This document shows positions 37,337-44,220 of a stretch of DNA of 44,220 nt, piece after piece. The notes under the pieces were generated by a model that was not told the origin of the DNA, ran no database searches, and saw nothing but the letters and a program-made list of their open reading frames with translations. Numbering within the stretch: the stretch's first letter is position 1; every line of letters starts with the position of its first letter. The position numbers and the translations under genes are program-made. The stretch lies in NCBI GenBank assembly GCA_030656575.1, contig JAUSPO010000078.1, positions 1 through 44,220 of the forward strand, written 5' to 3'. The DNA comes from Bacillota bacterium (lineage in GTDB: Bacteria; Bacillota; Dethiobacteria; DTU022; UBA8154).

Positions 37337-38199
37337 TTATTCCCTTGCCAAGCGTAGTATCTCTTCCCAGATTTCTTTAATTTTTTTTGAAACCGTCCCG
37401 TCACTGTATTCTACCACTGACAAGCCCTTTACCATTGCCTCCGTTACGACCTTGTCAAAAGGCACTTTTCCTACTACCGGCACCGATTGACTCAGGCAGT
37501 AATTTTCTATTTTCTGTGTATTTTCTTCGTCAAGATCACAACGGTTTATACAGACAAGAGCAGAAACTCCAAAATGGCGACAAACTGCCAGCACGCGCTC
37601 CATATCATGAACACCCGATAAGGTAGGTTCGGTAACAACCAGTGCTGCGAATGCACCAGCCAAAGAGGCGATAACGGGACAACCGATGCCCGGTGGGCCA
37701 TCTGTAATGATAACATCTCTGTTTTCATCCCGGGCAATCTCTTTAGCCTTGTTCCTGACTAGGGTAACAAGTTTGCCGGAATTCTCCTGCGCTGCTCCCA
37801 GGCGGGCGTGGACTAAAGGACCGTAAGGGGTTTGGGAGATAAACCATTTCCCGGAAACCACCTCTTCAAAGCTTATGGCACCTTCAGGGCAGGCGTGATA
37901 ACAAAGCCCACAGCCTTCACAGGAAAGAGAGTTAACCCGGAAATCTTCCCATATTGCTTCAAAGCGGCAGAGCTTACGGCAGAGGCCGCAGAGGCTGCAC
38001 TCTCTTCCCGGATAAATGCTTCCCTGGAAGCTTTAAATTCATGAGTCTCTTGAAGAACTGGGCGCATGATCAGTCTCAGGTTAGCAGCATCCACATCACA
38101 ATCTGTAAAAACTGCATTAGATGCCATGGCCGCAAAAGAACCTGCAAAGGATGTTTTGCCTGTACCCCCTTTACCGCTGATTATTGTAATCTCTTTCAT
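37337..38199 (-). pseudogene. MinD/ParA-like ATPase with ferredoxin domain, frameshifted
   Basis: A second copy of the MinD-like ATPase with an inserted double [4Fe-4S] ferredoxin domain. The first frame (38199 onward) carries the deviant Walker A GKGGTGKTS and then runs into meaningless Ala/Ser-rich sequence. In the -1 frame the same DNA reads CSLCGLCRKLC and CEGCGLCYHAC, then VIITDGPPGIGCPVIASL and the rest to 37337. The switch is near 38001-38006, where an AG dinucleotide is repeated (GAAGAGAGTGC); two bases too many, or one missing, explains it. ATG 38199 overlaps the upstream MinD stop (TAATG). Sequencing error, slippage mutation and true decay are all possible. Confidence 0.82.
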
Positions 38200-39080
38200 T
38201 AGTCACCCACTTCTTTCTTCTCTGTTTTATGCTTTTCTGTACCAAGAACATTAAATATGCGTGTCCACAGTTCTTCAAACAGGCCGCGCCACCTTTCAAA
38301 GTGCAGCACTACCGCTTCACCCCTGGCATATAATTCGGCCAGTTCCCTGTCCCAGGGGATATGCATCAGGACTGGTATCCCCTCTTGCTTGCAGTAATCA
38401 TCTACGCAATTGTTACCAATATCCGAACGGTTAATTAGTACGCCGACGGGAATATCCAGCTTCTTCAGCATCTGCACAGCAAGATCCAGATCATTTAAAC
38501 CAAAGGGGGTGGGCTCGGTAACAAGCAGGCAAAAGTCGCTACCCTTAACCGCTGAGACTACCGGACAGGAAGTTCCGGGAGGAGCATCAATTATAACAAA
38601 TTTGCGGGGATCGATCTTGCTCTTGACGGCGTTGATCAGGGGAGGTGACATGGCCTCACCGGGATTTAGTCGCCCATGCAAAAAATCAATTTCATGAGCA
38701 ATTCCTTTTTCCAGAATACCAATACCGCGGGGTGCTTCTGTAATCGCTTCCTGTGAACAAAAATAGACACAACCCCCACATCCGTGGCACAGTTCAGGAA
38801 AGACAAGAATGTTTTCTTTAAGCACAGCTATGGCGTTAAAGACACAAATTTCTGCGCACCGGCCACAGAAATTACATTTTTCCTCATTTATTTCCGGAAC
38901 CGGTATGTTTACCGTTTCCGGGTTACTAAAAACAGGTTTTAAAAAGATGTGAGCATTGGGTTCCTCCACATCGCAATCTATAAGTTGGGGCTTTTCCTTT
39001 TGGTTTAAGGCCAGGGCAAGGTTAACAGCAACGGTAGTTTTTCCCGTTCCACCTTTGCCGCTGGCGACTGCTATGATCAT
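38199..39080 (-). CDS. MinD/ParA-like ATPase with inserted [4Fe-4S] ferredoxin domain
   Basis: A 293-residue P-loop ATPase of the type that accompanies orange-protein loci. Deviant Walker A is GKGGTGKTT (8-16). The ferredoxin insert carries C69, C72, C75, C79 and C98, C101, C104, C108, enough for two [4Fe-4S] clusters. Switch and Walker B segments are VIIDAPPGTSCPVVSAV near 158. The role is unknown; a cluster-loading or electron-delivery ATPase is the usual suggestion. ATG 39080 follows GGAGAG. It abuts the second, frameshifted copy with a TAATG overlap, so the two were probably made as partners. Confidence 0.88.
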   Translation of the reverse strand: MIIAVASGKGGTGKTTVAVNLALALNQKEKPQLIDCDVEEPNAHIFLKPVFSNPETVNIPVPEINEEKCNFCGRCAEICVFNAIAVLKENILVFPELCHGCGGCVYFCSQEAITEAPRGIGILEKGIAHEIDFLHGRLNPGEAMSPPLINAVKSKIDPRKFVIIDAPPGTSCPVVSAVKGSDFCLLVTEPTPFGLNDLDLAVQMLKKLDIPVGVLINRSDIGNNCVDDYCKQEGIPVLMHIPWDRELAELYARGEAVVLHFERWRGLFEELWTRIFNVLGTEKHKTEKKEVGD

Positions 39081-39137
39081 CTTAATCTCTCCATTTCTTC
39101 ACCGGTAACTGATCATTTAGAATTACAATAAATATTT

Positions 39138-39170
39138 ATCAGGGGGAGCAGCAATCAGCCCCCCCCTGAT
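39138..39170 (-). terminator. Intra-cluster hairpin between DUF5320 and MinD genes
   Basis: ATCAGGGGG/CCCCCTGAT 9-bp stem with a 15-base loop. The minus-strand tail AAATATTTATTG is a poor T-run, so partial termination or transcript processing is more likely than a full stop. Confidence 0.45.
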
Positions 39171-39175
39171 ACGAG

Positions 39176-39484
39176 TTATTCACTTTCTTGTTCTTTCCCC
39201 AGTTTTGACAATCGTTTTTCGATTTCTTCCAGTTCAACCCTGATCAAACGAACCTGATCTTTTAAAAAGAGAGCCTCATCTTCTGGAGGGGCCTCATCCA
39301 TCCAGGGATGATCAAGCCCGTAGTTGGGATAGAAATGACAGGGTCCCCACCAGCGTGGCTCTGGCTCTAATACCCCTGGCCCAGCGTATTGACAGAATCC
39401 ACCCCTAAAGCCTCCAGAACCGGGTGCCCATTCCCTGCTTTGTTTCCAAAAGCCAGGACCATACAAGTTTCTACCTTTAGTCAT
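39176..39484 (-). CDS. DUF5320 protein
   Basis: A 102-residue protein of the DUF5320 type: a Gly/Trp/Pro-rich first half (GPGFWKQSREW, GGFRGGFCQYAGPG, RWWGPCHFYP) and a charged C-terminal helix (LIRVELEEIEKRLSKLGKEQE). Function unknown; such proteins commonly sit beside NifX-like and Mrp/MinD genes in anaerobes. Two cysteines and one histidine in the first half could bind metal. ATG at 39484 overlaps the NifX-like gene by eight bases and follows GGAAGG. A longer frame to 39730 lies inside the NifX-like gene and is not real. Confidence 0.72.
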   Translation of the reverse strand: MTKGRNLYGPGFWKQSREWAPGSGGFRGGFCQYAGPGVLEPEPRWWGPCHFYPNYGLDHPWMDEAPPEDEALFLKDQVRLIRVELEEIEKRLSKLGKEQESE

Positions 39485-40268
39485 TGCCTTCCGTCCTTTC
39501 TTCACATTCATGAACGTGGCCATCCTGGCCATGTTCACAGAAACTCTCTCCTTCACTAAGATTGCCGGAAAGGTAACTCTCAATAACATCTTCAACAAAA
39601 CCAGTAATACCTGTAATTGTACTGATTCCCTGCTCGGCAAAAAGATCCTGGGCTTTAGGACCCATCCCTCCGGCGATAACGCAGCTGACTCGTTTTTCAC
39701 CCAAAAAACGTGGCAAGAATCCCGGCTCATGCCCTGGATTGGGAATTTCCGATTTGACTTCTACCTTATGATTATTAATCTCTACAAGAGTATAAGCAGG
39801 ACAGCGGCCAAAATGCTGGGCAACCTCTAAACCATCTGTAGCCAAGGCAATTTTTTCCCGGGAGACCGGAGTTTCGGTTTGCTTTTTCTGTTCAGCACCC
39901 CGTGAGAACATGCCTGAATGGGAACTAACAGTAGGTTCCACGATCGGACTGTACTGTCCTTCTTGATAGAGAGACAGAGCTTCCTCTATGGGAACTTCAG
40001 AGAGAGAATATACCTTGATCCCTGCAGAATTAAGGATGCGCGAGGCATTGGGTCCAACATCGCCTGTAAGCAGTACGTCAGCCTGCTGTTCAATTAAAAA
40101 TTGTGACGCTTTTATGCCAGCACCACTTCCTTCCAGTGCTCCAGGGTTAGTGAGGAAGTTCCATTTTATATCCTCTGTATCATAAATAGCATAAAATGGA
40201 CACCGACCAAATCGGGGATCAAGAAGAGATTTTAATTCTTTTCCGCTGGAACTAATTATAATCTTCAC
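39477..40268 (-). CDS. Double NifX/NafY-type (dinitrogenase Fe-Mo cofactor biosynthesis) domain protein
   Basis: Two NifX-like domains in one 263-residue chain. Domain 1 (residues 1-110) opens MKIIISSSGKELKSLLDPRFGRCPFYAI; domain 2 (about 135-240) repeats the pattern as IALATDGLEVAQHFGRCPAYTLV. Each has the RFGRCP/HFGRCP metal-cofactor motif. Single-domain relatives bind Fe-Mo cofactor precursors or, as the orange protein of Desulfovibrio, a molybdenum-copper sulfide cluster. The end carries a Cys/His-rich tail (CEHGQDGHVHEC) that may bind metal. ATG 40268 overlaps the Mrp stop by four bases (ATGA). No nitrogenase genes are present, so a nitrogenase role is unlikely. Confidence 0.87.
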   Translation of the reverse strand: MKIIISSSGKELKSLLDPRFGRCPFYAIYDTEDIKWNFLTNPGALEGSGAGIKASQFLIEQQADVLLTGDVGPNASRILNSAGIKVYSLSEVPIEEALSLYQEGQYSPIVEPTVSSHSGMFSRGAEQKKQTETPVSREKIALATDGLEVAQHFGRCPAYTLVEINNHKVEVKSEIPNPGHEPGFLPRFLGEKRVSCVIAGGMGPKAQDLFAEQGISTITGITGFVEDVIESYLSGNLSEGESFCEHGQDGHVHECEERTEGND

Positions 40269-41074
40269 TCGTTCATACCTCCTGCATTCATTTTTACTTG
40301 CTGTACACTGAGCAGTTTTTTAAATAATTCGCTTTCATAATCTTCTACCGTACCATTGTCACAGCACTCCGCCAGCTTCTTATCCAGAGGAAGAATGGCT
40401 ATTAGTGGTACACCAGTTAGTTCTGCTACTTCTTCACCTTTACTGGAACCAAACACTTCCACCTTCGCCTGACAGTGGGGACAGATTAAATAGCTCATGT
40501 TTTCAACCAAACCCAGCACAGAAATATTCATTGCTTTAGCCATTTTCAAAGCCTTTTTAACAACCATTACCGCCAGATCCTGTGGGGAACTAACGATAAC
40601 CAGACCATCCAATGGAATAGTCTGCATAACGGTTAAAGGCGCATCTGCCGTACCGGGAGGAAGATCAATAAAGAGGTAATCCAATTCACCCCACTCAACA
40701 TCTGCCCAGAACTGTTTTACTGCCCCACCAATAAGCGGCCCCCTCCAGATTACAGGATCTTCCTCATTGGAAAGTAGTAAATTTAAAGACATGATTCTTA
40801 TACCCTGTGAAGTTTCTGTGGGATCAAATCCCATGGTTCCCAGGGCCTTCTTTATACCAAACATCTTGGGAATACTCGGGCCGGTGATATCAGCGTCAAG
40901 GATACCTACCTTAAAACCTTCCCGAGAGGCGCCCACAGCCAATAAAGAGGTAACAGACGACTTGCCTACTCCGCCTTTTCCACTTCCCACAGCAATAACA
41001 TGCTTGATTCCGGGACGGAGTATTTTTTCCAACCCTGTTTTTTCTTCTTCTTGGGACGATTTGTCTGAACTCAT
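40265..41074 (-). CDS. Mrp/NBP35-family Fe-S carrier ATPase
   Basis: A 269-residue ApbC/Mrp ATPase that carries [4Fe-4S] clusters to target proteins. Deviant Walker A is GKGGVGKSS (32-40), followed by DADITGPSIPKMFG near 60, WRGPLIGGAVKQF near 110, DYLFIDLPPGTADAPLT near 132 and, near residue 208, the C-terminal CPHC cluster-bridging motif. There is no N-terminal DUF59 domain. ATG 41074 has AAAGGGG about 11 bases upstream. It overlaps the NifX-like gene by four bases, so the two are coupled. Confidence 0.92.
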   Translation of the reverse strand: MSSDKSSQEEEKTGLEKILRPGIKHVIAVGSGKGGVGKSSVTSLLAVGASREGFKVGILDADITGPSIPKMFGIKKALGTMGFDPTETSQGIRIMSLNLLLSNEEDPVIWRGPLIGGAVKQFWADVEWGELDYLFIDLPPGTADAPLTVMQTIPLDGLVIVSSPQDLAVMVVKKALKMAKAMNISVLGLVENMSYLICPHCQAKVEVFGSSKGEEVAELTGVPLIAILPLDKKLAECCDNGTVEDYESELFKKLLSVQQVKMNAGGMNE

Positions 41075-42144: not shown

Positions 42145-42286
42145 GATGAAATGCAACCTAAAGCTTAAAGGTGTCCGCATTTTAATATCTTTAAGACTCA
42201 GGCAGAGCTGAAGCATGAACAATTTTAACAGCGCTGCGAAAGCCAGCATATAACATATATGGATATTTAAGTTGTTTCATCAAGCT

Positions 42287-42306
42287 GAAGTGAGCCGAAG
42301 TGAGCC
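42287..42306. repeat. Tandem repeat GAAGTGAGCC x2
   Basis: Two perfect 10-base copies (42287-42296, 42297-42306) followed by a small CAGC/GCTG stem and eight-base T-run, which may weakly end transcription of the small membrane gene. The GTGAGCC core recalls the 27602-27636 repeats. Otherwise 42145-42433 holds no gene. Confidence 0.4.
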
Positions 42307-42373
42307 CAGCACCTGCTGTTTTTTTGAATCTTTGCCTTGGTGAGTACTATCACATAATTTTAAAGGGAAAAAA

Positions 42374-42400
42374 GGACAGAGAGATTCCGTCCTCCTGTCC
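42374..42400 (-). terminator. Terminator after the transposase gene
   Basis: GGACAG/CTGTCC stem with a bulged inner GAG/CTC extension and a minus-strand TTTTTT tail, 34 bases beyond the transposase stop. A second stem CGCTTAG/CTAAGCG (42424-42445) spans the stop codon itself. Confidence 0.6.
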
Positions 42401-42433
42401 AAAAGGCAAGCATTTTTCGTTTTCGCTTAGGCG

Positions 42434-43963
42434 TTATTCTAAGCGGAGTTGATGTTTTTTTGTCAGCAACGCGCTAATCCGCTCCGTATCCAGCCACGGA
42501 CCTTTTAAAGTTTCGAATATATAACGAATCAGACCTCGTGCTCCCATTTGTCGTACTTTTTCTGCCAGGTAAAGTGTTTTGAAGGCCAAGACATTCATAA
42601 GATGTGCCAGGCGCATCAGGTAATGGTAACCCTGCATGGCATTCCAGTTAAGTGAGAAGGCGTGCTCATAGCCATAACCATGATGCTTTTCCACCAGGAT
42701 ACTGTTTTCGATCGCCCAGCGGTGGCGTGCCTGCAGGTTGCAGCGTATATGTACATTTTTCTTATTTAAGGACTGGCTGGAAACCCAGGCGTGGCGTGAT
42801 CTTTTCTCCACACACCGGCCTGTTTTATGGTCAATCTCCTGCCAGGTTTCTTCGCAGACAACCAGGTGAACCGTTTGTTTCTTCCGCCCGTTCGTACCAT
42901 ATTCATGGACAAGCTGGTTTACCCACCAGAAGTGCTGCCGCCTGTTTCCCCAGTTCTGTTCCAACGTGCTTTGACCGTCATCCAGCTTTTTCAAGCCGTT
43001 TGCTTCTTGCCAGAGTGACGGCAGAGATTTGTTTTGCAAAACGATCATAAACTGCCAGTTGTACTTACGGCAGGACTCGAAAACAGGGCCGTTGGGGTAA
43101 AGGCCGTCTAGTAGAACCATAATGGCAAGGCGGCGGAATTCATTTTTTAAGCGTTCTGCCAGGCGTGTAAACGCTTTTAACTCACAGTCCTGTTTTCCTT
43201 GTTCGTTCTCTGTGTACTCGCAGAATTCACTTAAAAGTGGCAGGGAAAAGCCGCCGGAGAAAACAAGGTTGGCTTCCAGAACATAGACATAATACTGGGT
43301 TTCTCCATTGATGGTACGCTCGGAACATTCTTCGGCAAAGGGATAATCACGGCATATTTTCTGTGTTCCGTCGATGGCGACACACCAGTGGCGGTCTGCC
43401 AGGTAACGCTCAAATTTCTTGTTGCGAATAAACCGGCGCACCAGTTCGAGCAGGAGTTCCTCTAGTTGGCTTACATCTATTTTGCACAGCAAACGGTTAA
43501 TCGTGACCTGATGCGGTACTGTATCAATCTCCGGAATAATGCTCTTCAAATTTTCCAAAAAGGTGGGGGTGGTCATCTCCCGGTTGGCCTGGCGCCTTGA
43601 TTCTAGCTGGAAGACAAAGGCAAGCATCCCAAAGAGCAGCAGCACTGCCAGTTTGTGTTTGCTTTTCTTTGCTTGTCGGTAATCTTGAATGGTTTCCAGC
43701 TTTTTTAAGATATGAGGCAGTATTGTACGATATGGTTTAAGCATTTCCTCAATCGTTGTTTGCCGCTTGTTTTGTTCCTGCTGCGGTGTTTCAAGCTCGC
43801 TTTTGCGATCGGGAAGGGATGTTTTCGCGAATGCTTTAAGTCCCTCTGCTTCCTGCTGTTTACGCAGCTCTTTTTGCGCTTTTTTCCTTTCTTTCATGGC
43901 TAGTTTTCGGGCCTCTCTTTGGGGACGATGGCTGGGTTTACTCACCTTTTTCACCCCGCTCAC
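42434..43963 (-). CDS. IS4-like DDE transposase
   Basis: A 509-residue transposase. A very basic, Gln/Lys-rich N-terminus (residues 1-75) is followed by a helical region beginning KKLETIQDYRQAKKSKHKLAV, which resembles the opening of IS4/ISAs1-type transposases. Catalytic candidates are D in VAIDGTQK (near 200), D in VLLDGLYPNG (near 290) and E in RHRWAIENSILVEKHHG (near 435), the latter resembling the YREK-type region of IS4. The frame looks intact. GTG 43963 overlaps the upstream DruA-type gene by 26 bases; GTG 43954 is an alternative. I cannot place it in a named IS family. Confidence 0.82.
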   Translation of the reverse strand: MSGVKKVSKPSHRPQREARKLAMKERKKAQKELRKQQEAEGLKAFAKTSLPDRKSELETPQQEQNKRQTTIEEMLKPYRTILPHILKKLETIQDYRQAKKSKHKLAVLLLFGMLAFVFQLESRRQANREMTTPTFLENLKSIIPEIDTVPHQVTINRLLCKIDVSQLEELLLELVRRFIRNKKFERYLADRHWCVAIDGTQKICRDYPFAEECSERTINGETQYYVYVLEANLVFSGGFSLPLLSEFCEYTENEQGKQDCELKAFTRLAERLKNEFRRLAIMVLLDGLYPNGPVFESCRKYNWQFMIVLQNKSLPSLWQEANGLKKLDDGQSTLEQNWGNRRQHFWWVNQLVHEYGTNGRKKQTVHLVVCEETWQEIDHKTGRCVEKRSRHAWVSSQSLNKKNVHIRCNLQARHRWAIENSILVEKHHGYGYEHAFSLNWNAMQGYHYLMRLAHLMNVLAFKTLYLAEKVRQMGARGLIRYIFETLKGPWLDTERISALLTKKHQLRLE

Positions 43964-44220
43964 CTAAAAGATAAGCCCGGAAATGCTTGACCAGGGGATA
44001 TGCATAGATCTGTTTGATGGGTAAAGAGGCTTTGTTGTAACGGTCCATCCTGCCACGCCCGGTCGTTTCGCCGAGGCATATCCAGTTCGCTGCGCGGTAA
44101 ACGGTGCCCGCATATTTTTCTGTATCCACAAAGGTCTCTAAAAGGACCGGCTGGTAGTTGTAACGCCTTTGCCAGTCATGACGGATACGCTTAACTGCCA
44201 GGGAAAGGACCCGGCTGGCA
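43938..44220 (-). CDS. DruA-type (DUF4338) protein, C-terminal part (cut by window edge)
   Basis: The last 93 codons of a DUF4338 protein, the family that includes DruA of the Druantia anti-phage system. Blocks seen: QRRYNYQPVLLETFVDTEKY (as position marker; key PVLLETFVD), then GTVYRAANWICLGETTGRGR, DRYNKASLPIKQIYAYPL and the end FRAYLLG. The frame is open to the window edge; a GTG at 44129 is internal and not the start. Its 3' end overlaps the transposase gene, so the two are translated together. In this setting it is more likely an IS-associated protein than part of a Druantia defence locus, which would need DruE. Confidence 0.8.
   Translation of the reverse strand, partial: ASRVLSLAVKRIRHDWQRRYNYQPVLLETFVDTEKYAGTVYRAANWICLGETTGRGRMDRYNKASLPIKQIYAYPLVKHFRAYLLGERGEKGE

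Follow-up and report, generated by a model that had tools for sequence, protein, structure and literature searches.

The window that we analyzed, a stretch of 44,220 nucleotides forming contig C54 of a Bacillota genome, ends inside a small insertion sequence (IS) in which a DDE transposase is accompanied by DruA, a protein of the Pfam family PF14236 (formerly DUF4338). Elements of this kind have defined ends, target duplications and multi-copy relatives, both of their genes are under selection, and the same enzyme family occurs in several IS types, either as a separate gene or fused to the transposase. Structural modeling and profile comparisons indicate that the main domain of DruA has an enzyme fold of the GNAT type, with Mom of phage Mu as its nearest match. 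The reading that we favor, to which we give about half of our confidence, is that DruA acylates DNA in the manner of Mom and, being produced along with the transposase, helps these elements to persist, the acylation being a chemistry that we infer.

The element lies on the minus strand and spans a contig join. Its 2,798 bp run from position 42203 of the window, where it occupies 42203-44220, to base 899 of contig C71. The window breaks off inside druA, leaving a 3′ part (43938-44219, minus strand) whose 93 aa match PF14236 at E 1.3e-16. Contig C71 opens with the final 119 bases of the window (44102-44220, identical over 119 bp), and joining the two contigs yields a complete 304-aa DruA that matches PF14236 at E 3.5e-47 (161.4 bits, above the Pfam cut-off of 27). 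The transposase gene (42434-43963, minus strand) encodes 509 aa when read from GTG 43963, matches PF13808 (DDE_Tnp_1_assoc) at E 7.9e-13 and has long relatives in similarity searches. Both genes are enclosed by terminal inverted repeats, CAGAGCTGAAGCATGAACAA at the transposase end (42203-42222) and CATTGCTGAAGCATAAACAA at the other end (C71 880-899, reverse complement), which agree at 17 of 20 positions, and by a target duplication, AGACTCAGG on the left (42194-42202) and CGACTCAGG on the right (C71 900-908, locus L004), in which eight of nine bases are equal. These ends were set by the same rule as those of the copies in genome G423 described below. A second copy, diverged and partial, lies on contig C134 of the source genome (90% identity over 314 columns), and the match stops at the same base; the remainder of this copy was not found in the source-genome assembly. 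A sequence-only reading of the window had taken the two genes for one unit, which is borne out. None of the results by which it could have been refuted was obtained, as the ends are defined, the pair is present in several copies in genome G423, and no DruE-type helicase signature occurs in the source genome. The element has what distinguishes an IS, that is, a transposase gene, inverted repeats and a target duplication around both genes, and multiple copies, and its anatomy (gene pair and ends) is firm. That the genes are chance neighbors, or an artefact of assembly at a contig end, is so improbable that we set it aside. While the window does break inside druA and the join does depend on a 119-bp overlap, the inverted repeats and target duplication agree across the join, the same pair is found in other genomes, and relatives on single contigs show an identical layout. 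Farther along the minus strand, consecutive genes at window positions 37873-41074 resemble, when the translations are read by eye, Mrp/NBP35-type P-loop ATPases and small iron-molybdenum-cofactor-binding-like proteins.

The overlap between the two genes noted in the sequence-only reading is real, and its length depends on where the transposase starts: 26 nt, the figure originally given, with GTG 43963, and 8 nt with the in-frame GTG 43945. We infer from sequence that the second start (..VSKPSHRP) is the likelier one, since it fits the transposase-like remnant MSKSSRRP found behind DruA at locus L174. The druA and transposase genes are commonly close together or overlapping in relatives as well.

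Exact ends are found in related elements. In G423, a genome of the same phylum in two contigs, five of five copies examined have exact 9-bp duplications together with CAGTGCTGACGCAT repeats. The pair is present there in at least six places, the sixth at base 2436317; five of 13 candidates in this genome were scored in our DruA survey. Four of the five copies are interrupted. In L117, L124 and L125, a nested IS, the same one each time and encoding a 604-aa protein, is inserted in the 5′ part, while the L116 transposase is split by a further insertion. Exact 9-bp duplications are also present in relatives L039 and L040. A strict scan of 127 loci, which called for inverted repeats of at least 12/18 and an exact duplication of at least 8 (8-10 bp) around druA and transposase, was passed by 15 loci (14 distinct), as against a mean of 0.05 with base-shuffled flanks; two pairs of labels in our set, L094/L150 and L040/L179, each denote one locus. 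These 15 elements, 1.7-2.8 kb in size, include window-type, IS66-type and IS4/Tn5-type elements and one DDE_Tnp_1 fusion. Their repeats match at 18/18 positions in, for example, L213 (IS66, duplication AACTCGGG), L172 and L205 (IS4/Tn5, 10-bp duplication) and L179/L040 (window type, 9-bp duplication). The strict test was failed by 112 of the 127 loci, among which are four G423 copies whose ends were found by hand and others that are contig-cut, decayed or interrupted.

The label “IS4-like,” which the sequence-only reading had attached to the window transposase, proves loose, the protein matching no NCBIfam family at E 0.01, the ISAs1 model included. It shares PF13808 with the ISAs1 family, and a 9-bp duplication falls in the ISAs1 range. 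In contrast to ISAs1 elements, the element is longer and carries a second gene, and its relative L117 scores 20.6 bits with the NCBIfam model transpos_ISAs1, below the cut-off of 70. Of 25 loci encoding transposases related to that of the window, 20 also have druA, several of which are pieces of one decayed copy and three of which come from G423. Three sister transposases with 30% identity (L240, L243 and L248, the last two being two places in one genome with equal score) are without druA, from which it follows that DDE chemistry as such does not require DruA. The remaining two loci are L231, cut at the gene start, and L027, a fragment without druA. Five transposase fragments likewise have no druA (L044 and L046-L049, a scan that left out the weak hits L050 and L051). 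Of these, L046 coincides with L027, while the contigs of L047 and L049 end on the druA side. Every close relative that was intact and had space on its upstream side did have druA. In the 12 measurable pairs out of 16 sequence pairs, omega is 0.079-0.190 for DruA and 0.104-0.261 for the transposase, and the DruA value is the lower one in eight of the 12. Such low values for DruA argue against a useless passenger and remain compatible with a useful cargo.

How general is this association? We sought PF14236 in 398 genomes of the phylum and found it in 48; at most five candidates were scored per genome, so the numbers of places are lower bounds. Sixty places outside the source genome were analyzed and 12 weaker ones left aside. 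We called a DruA transposon-type when it scored at least 60 bits with a transposon-DruA profile (16 of the 60 scored below, leaving 44), and we counted a transposase when a match of at least 40 bits lay within 300 nt on the same strand, transposases being recognized by profiles built from DruA neighbors whose representatives were checked in Pfam and NCBIfam. A transposase is beside or fused to DruA in 35 of the 44 transposon-type places, as a separate gene in 24 and flagged as one frame in 11 (L092 is decayed and L121 consists of fragments only). The other places are two at a contig edge and seven without a transposase. A second, named set comprised the best 80 of at least 594 matching stretches, picked by similarity to transposon DruAs; 52 have a transposase, seven are at contig edges, and 21 are without one. 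Among its titles are Halanaerobiales, Desulfosporosinus, Desulfobacterales, Acidobacteria, Planctomycetes and one archaeal bin, with the proviso that many entries are metagenome bins and binning errors are thus possible. Close relatives are rare on sequenced plasmids (two of 72,556 records), a rarity that tells against conjugal or plasmid transfer as the main role of DruA. One plasmid, pTs417, carries a gene (L253, 2908-4242) named “ISAs1 family transposase” by RefSeq whose first part is DruA-like, so that here DruA is hidden in the annotation.

Over both surveys, DruA is partnered by seven transposase types and lies upstream of, downstream of or fused to them. These are the window type (PF13808, not above cut-off for any NCBIfam family), IS66 (PF03050), IS701 (PF13546), IS4/Tn5 (PF14706 and PF02281), an ISAs1-like type (PF13808 with PF01609), an IS4-type (PF01609) and, in one case (L224), a UPF0236 protein, a group which we take to be transposases. 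Fusions in which Pfam calls both domains occur with IS701 (L106, L126 and L127), IS4/Tn5 (L112), ISAs1-like (L120 and L136) and DDE_Tnp_1 transposases (L161, L173 and L180), all with DruA first, and with IS66 (L206), where the IS66 part comes first. When the transposase is mapped as a label on the DruA tree, leaving out rows without a transposase, at least 10 changes are needed over nine states, two of which are defence groups. The IS4/Tn5 partners form three clades, among which three gene orders occur, and, in our interpretation of the tree, the clade in which the transposase comes first nests in a starred group together with IS66 rows, apart from the other two. DruA, judging from these sequences, has joined several transposase families, repeatedly. 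IS with accessory or passenger genes are a known class; these elements, too, are small, carry a second gene, and have inverted repeats and target duplications. What differs here is the recurrence of a single enzyme family alongside seven types of transposase, be it upstream, downstream or fused. We found no description of DruA as an IS gene in the open-access literature searched, including the sections consulted of PMC10853773, PMC8565338, PMC7824862, PMC7251935 and PMC12774648. The association is thus wide and, within the literature searched, apparently undescribed.

Since plain sequence searches for Mom were weak (window DruA scores 21.4 bits, E 2e-4, with the Pfam Mom family PF25680, under the cut-off of 27.1), we applied profile-profile and fold comparisons. 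An AlphaFold model of the relative L154, built from a 36-row alignment with a pLDDT of 90.1, consists of a helical N-terminal domain followed by strands and helices in a GNAT-like order. When this model is compared to solved structures by VIA-align, Mom (8bv8) comes first, with a Z of 14.1 and an rmsd of 3.2 over 164 aligned residues, and the next match is at 12.3. The matches in the PDB are mainly GNATs, many at Z 11-12, with protein acetyltransferases among these. In Foldseek alone, Mom was absent from the 50 matches listed, and a PDB sequence search with the DruA profile gave no match at E 1. Comparison by hhalign of DruA with a nine-member Mom alignment gave 97.3% (E 2.5e-11 for the pair), while 30 column shuffles gave at most 1.8%, the reversed profile 0.5%, and five transposase profiles at most 0.8%, the last in a run in which the alignment option was misread. 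These comparisons indicate that the main DruA domain is an enzyme fold of the GNAT type for which Mom is the nearest match. PMC10853773 independently names DUF4338 a GNAT domain, and according to PMC7824862, Mom belongs to the GNATs and acylates adenine. A GNAT fold as modeled here would fit protein or small-molecule acylation too.

The residues that matter in Mom are largely kept in DruA. The 8bv8 structure is titled an inactive S124A mutant of Mom, and the changed residue, within the motif RNSES, aligns with the serine of the DruA motif NLAS. In two alignments with one locus in common, A1 (27 rows) and A3 (36 rows), this serine is present in 27/27 and 35/36 rows, respectively (62/63 together). 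At other positions of the conserved Mom motifs, DruA has Tyr in 63/63 and Asn in 61/63 rows, and His in 27/27 rows of A1 and invariantly in A3. The position of Mom D139 is Asp or Glu except for one Thr, with Glu in 10/27 rows of A1 and 16/36 of A3. Glu239, Tyr252 and His136 of window DruA, and their equivalents, are invariant. DruA is therefore like Mom (PF25680, 8bv8) in its predicted GNAT fold and in keeping the serine of the inactivating mutation and the His, Tyr and Asn positions. It differs from Mom in having an additional N-terminal helical domain, in adjoining or being fused to small IS transposases, and in that its substrate is a predicted one. The best matches of the helical domain are at Z 5-6, which is weak, and many are helix-turn-helix or winged-helix proteins, so this small domain may, on weak grounds, bind DNA. 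The sequence-only reading had suggested that the IS carries an accessory DNA-binding factor. DruA is indeed an accessory of the element; what is not supported is that it merely binds DNA, its main domain having the GNAT-type fold for which Mom is the nearest match.

What then is the relation to Druantia, the phage-defence system with which the sequence-only reading, as one of two options, linked this IS by common ancestry? Window DruA and the Druantia/PADLOC DruA are of the same Pfam family, PF14236, over the GNAT core, and in this sense the proposal stands. The shared family does not demonstrate a common ancestor for the IS and Druantia as such; the two kinds of DruA are split on a long branch, and DruA has joined several transposase families. 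Window DruA has about 300 aa, versus about 390 or 690 in the defence types. In a tree of 139 rows, 15 defence-type rows are separated from 124 transposon-type rows with an SH-aLRT of 100; this tree was built by a quick method with no mixture model, was rooted on the defence rows and came with a program warning of long branches meeting. The PADLOC DruA model PDLC00002 gives window DruA a partial match of 21.6 bits and the defence DruA of L081 373.5 bits. PF09369, the Pfam signature that PMC7251935 lists for DruE, has no match in the source genome at E 0.001, and no DruE-type gene was recognized by eye among the neighbors, either on C54 or within 3.5 kb of the start of C71. We therefore rejected a Druantia locus cut by the window end, the genes on C71 being, by eye, unlike DruB-DruE. 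PMC7251935 gives the function of DruA/DUF4338 in Druantia as unknown. Two groups of longer DruAs were also seen. L081, L082, L084 and L088 encode DruAs of about 390 aa and form a defence-looking group distinct from Druantia, with a NurA-like neighbor at L081 (just under the Pfam cut-off), at L082 and L088 one of the same cluster, and a HerA-like gene at L084. L132, L133, L135 and L138 encode DruAs of about 690 aa, with an SspF/DndF-like part adjoining in L135 and fused in L138.

The source genome contains further DruAs, and some DruAs occur alone. On C128, a broken DruA lies in an IS66-type element with the duplication TAAACAAT, and on C194 DruA overlaps an IS701 transposase. On C42 (L034), a solitary DruA has IS66-type ends that resemble those of C128, and no exact 8-bp duplication was found there. 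C5 (L035, 336-2012) encodes an odd 558-aa fusion of DruA with MORN repeats and has no transposase match right beside it. Together with C42, the candidates for a DruA-only mobile element number two, the other being L218 (1,147 bp), which has a perfect 18/18 inverted repeat and no exact duplication. L174, L183 and L207 have in common little beyond the gene and show no clear repeats, L174 retaining the short transposase-like remnant mentioned above, and we read them as remains of decayed elements. The notion that L165 is a DruA-only derivative of L167 was not supported by the ends. The DruA regions of L165 (a sulfate-reducer bin) and L167 (an Argoarchaeum bin) are 98.8% identical over 1,231 bp, owing either to recent cross-domain transfer or to a binning error (the sample names, Eth-SRB1 and Eth-Arch1, are alike). 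DruAs without a neighboring transposase make up seven and 21 cases in the two surveys, with contig-edge cases counted apart, and those measured are still under purifying selection (omega 0.09-0.23 in five measurable of six pairs, three of which are among the same three loci). DruA may for this reason also act alone, and an activity able to stand by itself is favored.

We picture the unit as a two-gene IS, druA followed by the transposase gene, that is probably transcribed as one operon. DruA would put an acyl-type mark on DNA, presumably on adenines, which is where Mom puts its mark, and since it would be made together with the transposase, it would act at or near the element. Such a mark could aid persistence and spread either by protecting DNA that has just moved against restriction by the host or by labeling the ends or the target for transposition. 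The gene overlap and the fusions would keep modifier and transposase balanced at one place. Phage Mu, which transposes by a DDE transposase, would provide a natural model, because Mom, like transposon DruA, travels on a DDE transposon.

Three other accounts must be weighed against this one. DruA could be cargo, a defence gene that benefits the host or counters rival phages and plasmids and has no part in transposition. We hold this unlikely, although it is the foremost of the three, and it draws on the family including Druantia DruA, on defence-type DruAs near NurA-like, HerA-like or SspF/DndF-like genes, and on purifying selection in DruAs without a neighboring transposase. Mere cargo would, however, hardly share a reading frame with transposases of several types, or overlap them by a few bases in others, and it would not be expected to join different transposases repeatedly. 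Besides, the strict-end elements leave little room for other genes at only 1.7-2.8 kb, and inspection by eye of the translated genes adjoining the window copy revealed no defence partner. The repeated change of partner also bears on a second account, which comes behind the cargo account in our estimate and is likewise improbable, in which DruA acylates a protein, either the transposase or one of the host, and thereby adjusts transposition. Its GNAT fold, the presence of protein acetyltransferases in the Z 11-12 range of matches, and the fusions and close spacing that place DruA next to the transposase all agree with this. Yet the solved structure closest to DruA is that of a DNA modifier whose key positions are kept, and with partner transposases of different families a common protein target is less likely, whereas DNA is common to all.

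Less probable again is an account close to that of the sequence-only reading, according to which DruA is a catalytically idle DNA-binding accessory that guides the transposase to the ends. The helical N-terminal domain, with its many helix-turn-helix and winged-helix best matches at only Z 5-6, points in this direction. It is the catalytic-type GNAT positions, however, that are invariant or nearly so across transposase partners, and the fused proteins L106, L120, L126, L127 and L136 have dispensed with most of the N-terminal domain while keeping the GNAT core. A Mom-like DNA acyltransferase serving the element is thus the account that we prefer.

A wider view, which we put forward tentatively and regard as somewhat doubtful, is that DNA acyltransferases of the Mom type belong to the core of transposition systems, having been recruited repeatedly by unrelated DDE transposases, and often fused to them, so that a transposon writes a mark on its own ends or target. 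Druantia DruA, Mu Mom and the transposon DruAs would then be branches of a single family that marks the DNA of mobile elements, and transposon genes would account for many “orphan defence” DruA annotations. Some proteins labeled as phage-defence DruA are probably parts of jumping genes, and defence surveys that go by Pfam family alone can count transposon genes as defence genes. Our reading offers a testable function for DruA/DUF4338. If true, it would mean that small IS carry a DNA-modifying enzyme within their own machinery, something that to our knowledge is so far known from phage Mu.
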